Assembly: GCA_003554345.1 (NCBI GenBank) | Contig: PWGE01000158.1 | Span: 1 to 8,134 of the forward strand | DNA from: T1SED10-198M sp003554345 [NCBI: Candidatus Sumerlaeota bacterium] | GTDB taxonomy: Bacteria; Sumerlaeota; T1SED10-198M | DNA: 8,134 nt | Reading direction: 5' to 3' | Shown: one piece after another, positions 1 to 2,181 of the stretch | Position numbering within the stretch: the first letter of the stretch is position 1 | How the letters are laid out: every line of letters starts with the position of its first letter | The notes under the pieces: model-generated | The model's input: only the letters and a program-made list of their open reading frames with translations | Told to the model about the DNA's origin: nothing | The model's database searches: none | Program-made: the position numbers and the translations under genes

Positions 1-187
1 GGAAATGGGGGCGGATGCTGTCCTGGTGAACACTGCCGTTGCTACGGCAGGGGATCCTATCACAATAGCCAGATCATTTAAAATGGCTGTAGAAGCTGGA
101 AGAATGGGTTATTTAGCCTCTCTTGGTCAGATTCGTGATGAGGCGGAAGCTTCCAGTCCTCTTACCGGATTTCTGCGCTCGCTTTAG
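1..187 (+). CDS. thiG: Thiazole synthase ThiG, C-terminal fragment
   Basis: This is the last ~62 codons of an open frame entering from the left edge; the first full codon begins at base 2 and the stop is TAG at 185-187. The protein contains [17 protein letters not shown] followed by a segment ending [12 protein letters not shown] and then ASSPLTGFL. This is the characteristic C-terminus of ThiG: the last strands of a TIM barrel with the glycine-rich phosphate-binding turn, then the AVEAGR helix and the SSPLTG tail. ThiG is cytosolic and builds the thiazole phosphate moiety of thiamin from 1-deoxy-D-xylulose 5-phosphate, dehydroglycine and ThiS-thiocarboxylate. No further thi gene follows on this strand inside the window, so thiG appears to be the last gene of its unit. 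The catalytic lysine lies upstream of the window and cannot be checked. Identification is by recognisable family motifs; the fragment is short but distinctive. Confidence 0.93.
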
Positions 188-226
188 TTGGGGTCTTTCG
201 CATATTTTGTGGAATTTTTCAGGGAT

Positions 227-244: not shown

Positions 245-464
245 TTCTATTGGTCAGATTCTCTAATATATTCCCCCTGAAAATACAACCGGGAATAAAC
301 AGAATACGGACAAGAATGCCAGGTCAGAAAGCTCGCAAAAAATACCGGAATACCGATCCCTGAAAAGAAAGCCCGGTACAAGAATAGAACCGAAAAGAGA
401 TTTAACAAGGATATACATGATGAAACAGCTTACTGATTCAGAAAAGAAAAACACCTGAAAAGTA

Positions 465-492
465 TCACGCAAAAGTCTGCAAAGGCGCAAAG
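465..492. repeat. Degenerate 9-10-base direct repeat, unit ending GCAAA
   Basis: Three adjacent units on the plus strand read TCACGCAAAA (465-474), GTCTGCAAA (475-483) and GGCGCAAAG (484-492), each carrying a GCAAA core. On the minus strand they read as CTTTGCGCC, TTTGCAGAC and TTTTGCGTGA. The tract belongs to the purine-skewed non-coding block and has no gene context of its own. Confidence 0.55.
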
Positions 493-537
493 TTTCGGAA
501 AAAGAACAAGGAAATACATGCCTCGGAGAAAGAGAAT

Positions 538-564
538 TGCATCGATGTACAGGATGGAGAGGAT
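538..564. repeat. Degenerate 9-base direct repeat, unit ending GAT
   Basis: Three exact 9-base steps on the plus strand read TGCATCGAT (538-546), GTACAGGAT (547-555) and GGAGAGGAT (556-564). On the minus strand each unit begins ATC, giving ATCCTCTCC, ATCCTGTAC, ATCGATGCA. A related, more worn pair occurs near 404-423 (AACAAGGAT next to ATACATGAT). The repeat lies inside the purine-skewed block. Confidence 0.55.
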
Positions 565-570
565 AGAAGA

Positions 571-612
571 CCGGAAACAGAGAAATTGCCGGAGAATAGA
601 CCCGGAAAACAG
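571..612. repeat. Spaced CCGGA(A/G)A repeats
   Basis: CCGGAAACAG (571-580), CCGGAGAATA (589-598) and CCGGAAAACAG (602-612) form an irregular set, spaced 18 and 13 bases apart. The first and last are nearly identical. Other CCGG or ACCG words lie at about 287-291, 342-355 and 372-376. They add to the impression that the block was built from short duplicated words. Confidence 0.4.
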
Positions 613-622
613 ATTATTGAAC

Positions 623-649
623 CACGAAACACACGAAATACTCGAAAAG
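623..649. repeat. Degenerate 9-base direct repeat, CACGAAA units
   Basis: CACGAAACA (623-631), CACGAAATA (632-640) and CTCGAAAAG (641-649) are three perfectly phased 9-base units. On the minus strand they give TTTCGTG-type words. This is the cleanest periodic tract of the purine-skewed block. Confidence 0.6.
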
Positions 650-761
650 AATACATGGCAGAAGAATTAGATAAGATTTTCGCACGGTTGACGCACACAT
701 TCTGACTCTTAGCATATTAATATATTATACCGGCATCTCCACAATAATTCCGAAAGAACCT

Positions 762-1412
762 TTAGTTGTGATGGTGTTTGATGATTTTTCCTTCTACCAT
801 GAATAGTATATCTTCTCCTATATTGGTGGAAAGATCTGCTATGCGTTCTAATTTCCCGGTGATACGTATTACATGCAAAGCTCGTTCAATAAGAGAGGGG
901 TCTTCAGTCATTTCGTCTATACATTTTTTAAGCACAGAGAGCTGCATTTTATCTACTTCGTCATCTCTTTTACATACTTCCCGGGCAAGCTGAATGTCCT
1001 CAGTGGTAAATGCTTTGATACTGTCTTTTAGCATGGTAGTGGTTGTGTCTGACATATTCTGAATAGACTCCGGGTAAGTAAAAGAAGGATATTGTATAAG
1101 AAAAAGGCCGCTTTTAGCAATATTGACAGCGTGGTCTCCCATTCTTTCTATATCATTGTTCATTTTGAGGATCATAAGGATAGTTCTTAAATCTTTGGCA
1201 CGAGGTTCATACTGAGCAATAAGACTGGTGCATAATTCATCAATGACAATTTCCCATCGGTTGGCTTTTTCTTCATCTAACTTTATTACTTCGTTAAGAA
1301 GTGATTTATTTTTGGAAAGGAAACCCCGAATACTTTTTTCTATCATAGTTTCAACGAGGGTAGCGTATTCTATAAGCTCTTTTTTTAATACTGATAATCG
1401 TTGTTTTAACAT
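762..1412 (-). CDS. phoU: Phosphate signalling protein PhoU
   Basis: This 216-residue cytosolic, all-helical protein couples the Pst transporter to the PhoR kinase and keeps the Pho response off when phosphate is plentiful. Both three-helix PhoU repeats are present. Each carries its metal/partner-site motif: DIERMGDHAVNIA (residues 87-99) in the first and KLERIADLSTNIGEDI (187-202) in the second. Length is normal for the family. I start at ATG 1412-1410 because AGGAG (1424-1420) sits 7 bases upstream; the frame can be extended 6 codons to a TTG at 1430, but that would place the start inside pstB and upstream of its own ribosome site. The gene is last in the operon, 10 bases after the pstB stop, and the Shine-Dalgarno overlaps that stop, suggesting coupled translation. 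The extreme C-terminus is KHHHN, an unusual but natural His run. No convincing terminator follows the stop. Confidence 0.96.
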   Translation of the reverse strand: MLKQRLSVLKKELIEYATLVETMIEKSIRGFLSKNKSLLNEVIKLDEEKANRWEIVIDELCTSLIAQYEPRAKDLRTILMILKMNNDIERMGDHAVNIAKSGLFLIQYPSFTYPESIQNMSDTTTTMLKDSIKAFTTEDIQLAREVCKRDDEVDKMQLSVLKKCIDEMTEDPSLIERALHVIRITGKLERIADLSTNIGEDILFMVEGKIIKHHHN

Positions 1413-1419
1413 TTTTAGT

Positions 1420-1424
1420 CTCCT
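1420..1424 (-). promoter_or_regulatory. phoU ribosome binding site that decides the start
   Basis: AGGAG on the minus strand, 7 bases before the ATG at 1412, supports that ATG over the in-frame upstream TTG at 1430. It overlaps the last base or two of the pstB stop codon (1425-1423), so a ribosome ending pstB is well placed to reinitiate on phoU. Confidence 0.7.
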
Positions 1425-2181
1425 ATCCAAACTTACCGGTTAAATATTCTTCAGTTCGTTTATCCTTGGGAACAGTAAATATTCGCTCTGATGAATTGTA
1501 TTCAACCAATTCTCCCATGTAAAGAAAAGCAGTATAATCCGATACCCGTGCTGCCTGAGCAATGTTGTGAGTTACCATTACAATGGTAACTGTTTTTTTT
1601 AATTCTTCTATTAATTCTTCAATGTGTGTTGTGGCTCGGGGATCGAGAGCAGAGGTGGGCTCATCAAACAGAATAATATCCGGCTTTACAGCTAGAGCTC
1701 GGGCAATACACAAACGTTGTTGCTGTCCCCCCGATAGAAATGTCCCTTTTTTGTTTAAATGATTTTTTACTTCTTCCCATAAAGCGGCTTTTTGAAGGGC
1801 ATCCTGTACGATAGAATCTCTTTCTAACCTGGTAAGACGAATACCGTTTAGAGTGTAACCTGCCAGCACATTTTCATAAATAGACATATTGGGGAAAGGA
1901 TTAGGACGTTGAAAAACCATTCCTATGTGCCGTCGCAATGTAATCGGATTCTTTTCGAAAATATTGACGTCCCCCAGAAAGATGCTTCCCCCGTAATCTG
2001 CGTCGGCAGTCAGTTCGTGCATCCGGTTTAAACATCGAATGAGCGTTGTCTTTCCACAACCAGACGGGCCCATAATAGCCGTAACTTTCTTATAAGGAAA
2101 AGACAAATTAATATTTTTTAAAACTTGAGTTTTTCCGAAATAAGCGTCCAGATTTTTAATTGTTAAAATTGAATTTTCCAT
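1423..2181 (-). CDS. pstB: Phosphate ABC transporter ATP-binding protein PstB
   Basis: This 252-residue ATPase subunit sits on the cytoplasmic face of PstC/PstA and powers phosphate import. All ABC motifs are intact: Walker A GPSGCGKTT (38-46), Q-loop at Q91 within FQRPNPFP (the PstB-typical form), signature LSGGQQQR (149-156), Walker B ILFDEP (170-175), D-loop SALD (177-180) and switch His205 in VTHN. The C-terminal LTGKFG is usual for PstB. The frame stays open 29 codons further upstream, but that stretch is the out-of-frame 3' end of pstA and is not family-like. The ATG at 2181 has GGTGAT (2193-2188) 6 bases ahead, matching the end of 16S rRNA, and gives the normal N-terminus. The first 19 bases overlap the end of pstA, so the two are probably coupled. 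Confidence 0.98.
   Translation of the reverse strand: MENSILTIKNLDAYFGKTQVLKNINLSFPYKKVTAIMGPSGCGKTTLIRCLNRMHELTADADYGGSIFLGDVNIFEKNPITLRRHIGMVFQRPNPFPNMSIYENVLAGYTLNGIRLTRLERDSIVQDALQKAALWEEVKNHLNKKGTFLSGGQQQRLCIARALAVKPDIILFDEPTSALDPRATTHIEELIEELKKTVTIVMVTHNIAQAARVSDYTAFLYMGELVEYNSSERIFTVPKDKRTEEYLTGKFG

Follow-up and report, generated by a model that had tools for sequence, protein, structure and literature searches.

Results

A target-site duplication brackets the whole thiG–phoU spacer

The window, by which we mean the whole 8,134-nt stretch analysed (contig PWGE01000158.1 of the Sumerlaeota bacterium T1SED10-198M sp003554345), begins with the end of thiG and the convergent phoU gene, both named in an earlier sequence-only reading and both borne out by Pfam matches. 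The spacer between them is occupied from end to end by what appears to be a single insertion:

2–187, plus strand: 3' end of thiG (Pfam ThiG, E = 1.1e-17)
183–190: left copy of an 8-bp target-site duplication (TSD), TTTAGTTG, over the thiG stop codon (from the sequence and a TSD plus inverted-repeat scan)
191–760: MITE-like insertion of 570 bp, the entire thiG–phoU spacer (terminal inverted repeats (TIRs) and TSD; related copies on contigs C210 and C427)
191–214, plus strand: left TIR, 18/24 matches to the right end
737–760, minus strand: right TIR, 18/24 matches to the left end
761–768: right copy of the 8-bp TSD, TTTAGTTG, over the phoU stop codon (from the sequence and the same scan)
762–1430, minus strand: phoU (Pfam PhoU, E = 2e-44)

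On this sequence evidence, positions 191–760 are best explained as a non-autonomous 570-bp TIR element, inserted where the ends of thiG and phoU abut. The segment begins with GGGTCTTTCG and ends with CGAAAGAACC, and the duplication around it is perfect, TTTAGTTG standing as a direct repeat on both sides. When the window was scanned for 8-bp direct repeats around inverted ends matching at 17 or more of 24 positions, with a separation of 200–1500 nt, the pair at 183–190 and 761–768 was the only match, and none of 200 dinucleotide shuffles gave any. The segment thus has the TIRs and flanking TSD that mark MITE-like elements and, like MITEs with 8-bp duplications, it carries no gene, and ends related to those of the segment lie elsewhere in the genome; it differs from them in bearing GxxExxY-type arms, described below. 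Its ends and 8-bp duplication may be ISL3-like. The 88%-complete assembly of the same genome yielded no ISL3-type transposase (PF01610), and within that scope we set this enzyme aside as the owner of these TIRs. A second copy with both ends and a shorter middle lies at C210:2450–2804, where the flanking 8 bp agree at 6 of 8 positions by eye and form no perfect duplication, and the left end of a third copy is seen on C427, with other interior repeats.

The sequence-only reading had proposed a decayed mobile or retro-type insertion. The first part is right, given the inverted repeats and the TSD, whereas the second finds no support: no Rfam family matched the window at gathering thresholds, and the anatomy requires no reverse transcription.

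The spacer is purine-rich and multi-copy, but not strictly periodic

The purine skew reported for the spacer from a hand count was exact: positions 301–660 hold 65 C and 51 T, or 116 pyrimidines in 360 nt (67.8% purine). Three tracts of different repeat units had been placed at 465–492, 538–564 and 623–649, and all three lie there. The 9-base phasing ascribed to them did not survive as a property of the block. Over 255–680 the autocorrelation at lag 9 was 0.321 vs 0.300 in shuffles (z = 1.07; 163 of 1000 equal or higher), and z was 1.17 over 301–660 (122/1000 as high) and 1.92 over 188–761 (30/1000), with 1000 dinucleotide shuffles per interval as controls. A strict 9-base period across the whole block is ruled out by this non-significant autocorrelation. 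Inside the block, Tandem Repeats Finder called 623–647 (period 9, score 36) and nothing else.

The same reading was to be abandoned if there were neither an excess at lag 9 nor similar blocks elsewhere; the excess is indeed missing, but matches in the same genome are abundant. At least 53 matches to the block were counted, with 40 of 113 candidates scored, several of them at contig ends, and 17 contigs picked blind to repeats contained 12 multi-copy regions, in 5 of the contigs. Among 40 other genomes, 4 had any match, in every case to one stretch (query 419–468, window 606–655, the part called module C below). Because every match there was limited to that one module, the block itself is unseen in these 40 genomes.

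GxxExxY genes lie between inverted arms in many genomes

The tracts had been likened to T/C-rich tracts near GxxExxY genes. This link is correct: they resemble the inverted arms of those genes. A cassette consists of one GxxExxY gene between two inverted arms and has a median length of 493 bp (71 loci scoring ≥18). With 32 loci from relatives and the window's own genome, we aligned each upstream flank locally to the reverse-complemented downstream flank; in 19 loci the own pair scored above every cross-pairing. The scoring here was permissive, and several high scores (e.g. L088, L097 and L100) were long low-identity alignments. We therefore ran a stricter scoring on 80 named loci picked by protein alone, of which 76 were usable and four, with a flank under 100, were dropped. 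Inverted scores averaged 19.3 in these loci, compared with 10.1 in 5700 cross pairs and 9.6 around 138 control ORFs taken from the same loci (Mann-Whitney p = 1e-28); scores of 18 or higher occurred in 57%, 2% and 0%, respectively. The own pair exceeded all cross pairs in 36 of the 76, and about 28% scored below 15, without a clear inverted pair. Direct (same-strand) scores reached 18 in 25% of loci, because arms form arrays.

These loci span Cyanobacteriota, Planctomycetota, Bacteroidota, Acidobacteriota, Pseudomonadota, Chloroflexota and methanogenic archaea, and 8 plasmid records carry a GxxExxY relative. Exactly three cores of the form C[AG]CN[ACG]A[GT] were present in 91 of 142 arms (64%; the 71 loci scoring ≥18). 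Core-to-core distances of 8 nt (89), 9 nt (76) and 10 nt (34) predominate, and the pooled autocorrelation is 0.38, 0.37 and 0.35 at lags 8–10, with lag 2 equally high (0.36). Because these distances are mostly 8, 9 or 10 nt, the "9" of the window is a mean and not a strict period. In the open-access literature, the accessible part of PMC8934634 included, we found no description of these arms.

The element carries four probable solo arms in one orientation

Within the element we recognise four arms, all on the plus strand:

393–428, plus strand: solo arm A, GAT-like (own-genome repeats up to 100%; 15 census matches; type by eye)
462–492, plus strand: solo arm D, CTC-AG type, the former 465–492 tract (matches arms of L161 (Nostoc), L215 and L243)
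537–565, plus strand: solo arm B, GAT type, the former 538–564 tract (matches both arms of L105; 29 own-genome census matches)
614–650, plus strand: solo arm C, CC-AG type, the former 623–649 tract (matches L178 arms; 623–647 has period 9 by Tandem Repeats Finder)

When 120 arms from 60 GxxExxY loci of other genomes were compared with 255–680, 10 scored 13 or higher on the plus strand, against 0.1 expected from shuffles (maximum 4, n = 200), and none did so on the minus strand. By these matches the block qualifies as solo arms. They fall on 462–492 (L161, L215, L243), 540–565 (L105) and 614–637 (L178), that is, on the three tracts noticed earlier, and all three arm classes are represented. No foreign arm reached the score cut on arm A, which we call an arm by eye and from its recurrence alongside B. 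The GxxExxY gene itself (TIGR04256) was found only on contigs C319, C120 and C8. Because it is absent from the window contig and the four arms share one strand, the block consists of arms only and is not a cassette. What had looked like different units with one period and one strand bias arises because arms of different protein-clade-specific types are stacked in one orientation.

The interior of 191–760 is a mosaic of the recurrent modules A, D, B and C with purine-rich linkers. A census of 41 contigs (the window, 20 picked by matches, 17 unselected and 3 picked for GxxExxY) found 51 copies of the four modules, and neighbouring arms within 200 nt lay on the same strand in 22 of 22 pairs. This census undercounts, because the D profile recovered no copy but its own, and a facing pair on C26, where two C-type arms are opposed with outer ends adjacent (by eye), escaped the C profile. 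Of the three TIGR04256 matches in the genome, two are intact and the third contains a stop; repeats of this kind lie within ~0.6 kb of all three; on C319 the modules on either side of the gene face inward, and B is present on both sides.

Several minor features accompany these genes and repeats. On C319 (L071), a fragment of a TIGR02436 gene (1290–1394; 32.9 bits) lies directly upstream of the GxxExxY gene. Downstream of the GxxExxY genes, pyrimidine-rich arm arrays at L071:2322–3014 and L069:3320–4405 are open for 230 and 361 aa; neither opening had a match above the curated cut-off, and they are probably chance openness of low-stop repeats. Further interspersed repeats are abundant on the contigs of this genome: palindromic GTAGAGACGCAATATTTTGCGTCTC, TCCGCCAGAGTGAACTTTCAGGAAG, and CCTCTGAAAATAAAAC, of which CCTCTGAAAATAAAAC is found within the window element's copy on C427 as well.

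Arm type follows protein clade, and arms follow the gene

Co-variation was assessed in 93 of 133 loci, all with a recognisable arm pair (arm score ≥14.5); loci with a stop and listed duplicates were excluded. Arm similarity correlated with protein similarity (Mantel r = 0.30, 0/2000 permutations), in a set that still included L246 (the same locus as L109) and L144 (arms identical to those of L096). Both were left out of the tree, a quick one of 91 proteins and 117 columns in which 45 of 88 inner branches are unresolved and 16 rows are unlabelled; arm type was unclear ("other") in 17 of the 93 loci. The AG-type (60) versus AT-type (15) label requires one change on this tree, on a branch with 98% SH-aLRT, compared with a mean of 13.7 in shuffles (0/500), after L092, which the script labelled AT and whose arms read CACGAAG, was relabelled AG by hand. 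With three arm classes, in which L092 stayed AT, there were 5 changes vs a shuffled mean of 22 and minimum of 17 (n = 300).

The arms also co-occur with the gene. The AG-type pattern was found in 33 of 99 genomes and the reversed control pattern in none; a GxxExxY gene is present in 49 of the 99 and in 32 of the 33. The AT-type pattern was found in 17 of 193 genomes, 14 of which match the L105 GxxExxY protein (64 of 193 overall). Fisher tests that treat related genomes as independent gave 1.7e-12 for the AG type, with the 32/33 overlap counted by hand, and 1.9e-5 for the AT type. The one exception among AG-pattern genomes is G047, with 29 AG-type arms, no GxxExxY match and 19 TIGR02436 matches. 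Many of its arms form opposite-strand pairs ~38–40 or 110 nt apart, and many of the 19 TIGR02436 matches likewise come as opposite-strand pairs.

Dispersal is clearest in G085 (single contig, 5.0 Mb), which has one GxxExxY gene and 131 AG-pattern matches; those listed resemble the arms next to its gene. Plus-strand matches guided the choice of 20 stretches, one of which was taken for its triple array, and 26 of the 27 arms in them fall outside ORFs of at least 100 aa. Where two arms were no more than 200 nt apart they shared a strand (6 of 6 cases, spacings of 51–130), and three printed arrays have polypurine linkers and the same look as the window.

GxxExxY is predicted to be a small PD-(D/E)XK nuclease

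To our knowledge, GxxExxY proteins are named only after a motif. The two intact ones of this genome match Pfam PF13366 (PDDEXK_3), and 21 proteins share invariant E22, D62, E72 and K74 (E, D, ExK) plus Q..Y residues. The AlphaFold2 model has a mean pLDDT of 95.2, and its best PDB match is SSO0001 (Foldseek E = 3.2e-3, Z = 9.7), which we take to be a Cas4. The next matches listed by Foldseek are restriction-type and Hjc folds (Z 7–8.4), which could reflect just the common fold, and matches at Z 7–8 may be noise; no solved structure matched the protein by sequence at E ≤ 1. With the Pfam match, the catalytic residues and the fold match at Z 9.7, GxxExxY is predicted to be a small PD-(D/E)XK nuclease. 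Its predicted fold resembles that of the Cas4/RecB-type and Hjc enzymes, as do its conserved residues (E, D, ExK and QxxxY); it differs from them in being a minimal core of ~125 aa with no cysteine among its invariant columns.

Cassettes come, go and are exchanged at one cyanobacterial site

Presence, absence and exchange of cassettes were followed at one site. Among 16 Dolichospermum genomes, 8 have the cassette at the L157 site, counting that of the query itself. G203, G204 and G205 have a different cassette there (~70% nucleotide identity), with other arms and in the opposite orientation, between flanks 91–97% identical to those of G194. G206 retains fused arm remnants only. The flanks lie apart in G210, G211 and G213, of which G211 keeps an arm plus a scrap of the gene and G213 an arm remnant, and no flank match for the site was found in G212. 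By gene layout and flank sequence, the Nostoc L161/L254 site is the same one; of 8 Nostoc genomes, 6 are filled there, and G216 and G220 are empty and without arms. The empty sites could be losses rather than ancestral. At L294 (Nostoc G214), the same extra insert is present in both arms as mirror images, which makes copying of one arm from its partner probable.

A second gene family between inverted arms

S23 four-helix-bundle genes (TIGR02436; loci L112–L141, L132 being G000:C80) also lie mostly between inverted arms, here with a 7-nt period (autocorrelation 0.61, 0.58 and 0.54 at lags 7, 14 and 21; 48 arms). Of 30 loci, 29 were usable, and in 22 of these the own pair outscored every cross pair, under permissive scoring without control ORFs that included some long low-identity alignments. 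The Coxiella S23 intervening sequence is described in PMC4990558 as having heptamers upstream of the S23 ORF, terminal inverted repeats and excision by RNase III. GxxExxY cassettes are thus like S23 and 23S rRNA intervening sequences in placing a small gene between inverted arms of short-period repeats; the protein families are unrelated, and the S23 arm period is exactly 7 nt compared with 8–10 nt for GxxExxY arms.

Discussion

Our results support a model, which we consider probable, in which the thiG–phoU spacer is a TIR element carrying four same-orientation GxxExxY solo arms, and in which the nuclease recognises and cuts its own arm type and repair makes the copies. The unit of such a system would be a cassette of ~0.5 kb, comprising a PD-(D/E)XK nuclease gene and two inverted arms, usually with three 7-nt cores C[AG]CNNA[GT] each, spaced 8–10 nt within the arm. 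We infer that the nuclease binds arms, most likely those of its own type, that it would cut DNA there, and that repair would then copy the cassette or an arm to new places. The gene would be held at one to few copies, with arms spreading to tens or more than 100 mostly intergenic sites, as in REP/RAYT systems. In arrays the arms run mostly one way, a pattern not expected of a simple two-ended transposon.

The closest parallel that we see is with REP/RAYT. As described in PMC2817692, a RAYT gene lies between two inverted copies of a short extragenic repeat, repeat and protein co-evolve, and repeat abundance follows gene presence, with many repeats per gene. The GxxExxY system resembles REP/RAYT in these three reported hallmarks (PMC2817692), its gene being flanked by inverted, dispersed and co-varying repeats. 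This is an analogy in working and not homology. RAYTs belong to the Transposase_17 family, with HUH/Y1 tyrosine transposase chemistry, whereas GxxExxY is a PD-(D/E)XK protein, the intact proteins of this genome matching PF13366 and not Transposase_17. REPs are palindromes with a GT(A/G)G head, whereas in GxxExxY arms a 7-nt core is repeated directly, and GxxExxY cassettes occur in many bacterial phyla and in archaea. The GxxExxY system may thus operate as REP/RAYT does, but through an unrelated nuclease and repeats that are not palindromes.

A broader reading is that GxxExxY genes, together with their arms, make up a widespread, unrecognised class of mobile gene plus repeat, with a minimal Cas4/RecB-like nuclease, and that S23 is an unrelated second protein using the same architecture. 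We regard the chances of this as about even. Within this reading, since S23 and GxxExxY use one architecture, many "unexplained" short-period intergenic repeats would be their solo ends. We know of no owner for the short-period repeats in the intergenic DNA of many environmental bacteria.

The four-arm reading has to be weighed against others. The arms might owe their spread to a different enzyme or to recombination by the host, with GxxExxY genes just landing safely between inverted arms. Such a passenger role would fit the great excess of arms over genes (131:1 in G085), the arms without a GxxExxY gene in G047 and the carriage of arms in larger mosaic repeats and in the window TIR element, but a passenger has no need for an arm type that tracks protein clade across phyla, and the gene is present in 32 of 33 arm-positive genomes; we think this explanation unlikely. 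We give still less credence to an RNA-level element like the S23 intervening sequence, in which arms would pair in the transcript, RNase III would cut and the repeats would be kept for RNA structure. S23 genes do lie between inverted arms of 7-nt period, and the Coxiella S23 element has heptamers as well as terminal inverted repeats and is excised by RNase III (PMC4990558). However, the four window arms and the 22 neighbouring census pairs run one way and cannot pair mutually (the facing pair on C26 excepted), close neighbours in the G085 stretches share a strand and 26 of the 27 arms there lie outside ORFs, and the window has no Rfam match.

The element could also be a MITE and nothing more, its interior purine-rich by chance and its likeness to GxxExxY arms coincidental. 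The TIRs and 8-bp TSD are clear and the C427 copy has other interior repeats, as would be expected of such an element, but three tracts match foreign arms of three classes on the plus strand only, and the same modules are also found away from the TIR element, next to a GxxExxY gene of the same genome among other places, making coincidence very improbable. Decayed coding DNA or a plain convergent-terminator spacer is scarcely credible: the position between convergent genes and minus-strand ORFs of 75 and 77 aa would suit it, but neither ORF has a Pfam match at E ≤ 0.001, for which reason decayed coding DNA was rejected, and the multi-copy mosaic repeats and the TSD speak against both.

If four solo arms in a TIR element is the right description, such spacers can be read as records of the past positions of nuclease cassettes or their ends, and the tie between repeat type and protein clade gives GxxExxY a candidate function. 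If confirmed, a RAYT/REP-like system built on a different enzyme would be a case of convergent evolution, and would add a small DNA-recognition system with clade-specific three-core targets.

Finally, the arms may be compared with the STRR, which are heptamer repeats of cyanobacteria. Both are short-period intergenic repeats, and a single search of the open-access literature gave no link of STRR to S23 or GxxExxY genes. In two of the printed G085 arrays (L335 and L338), heptamer repeats, GGCAGTA and GGCAAGA, directly adjoin AG-type arms, and therefore both kinds of repeat can cluster.
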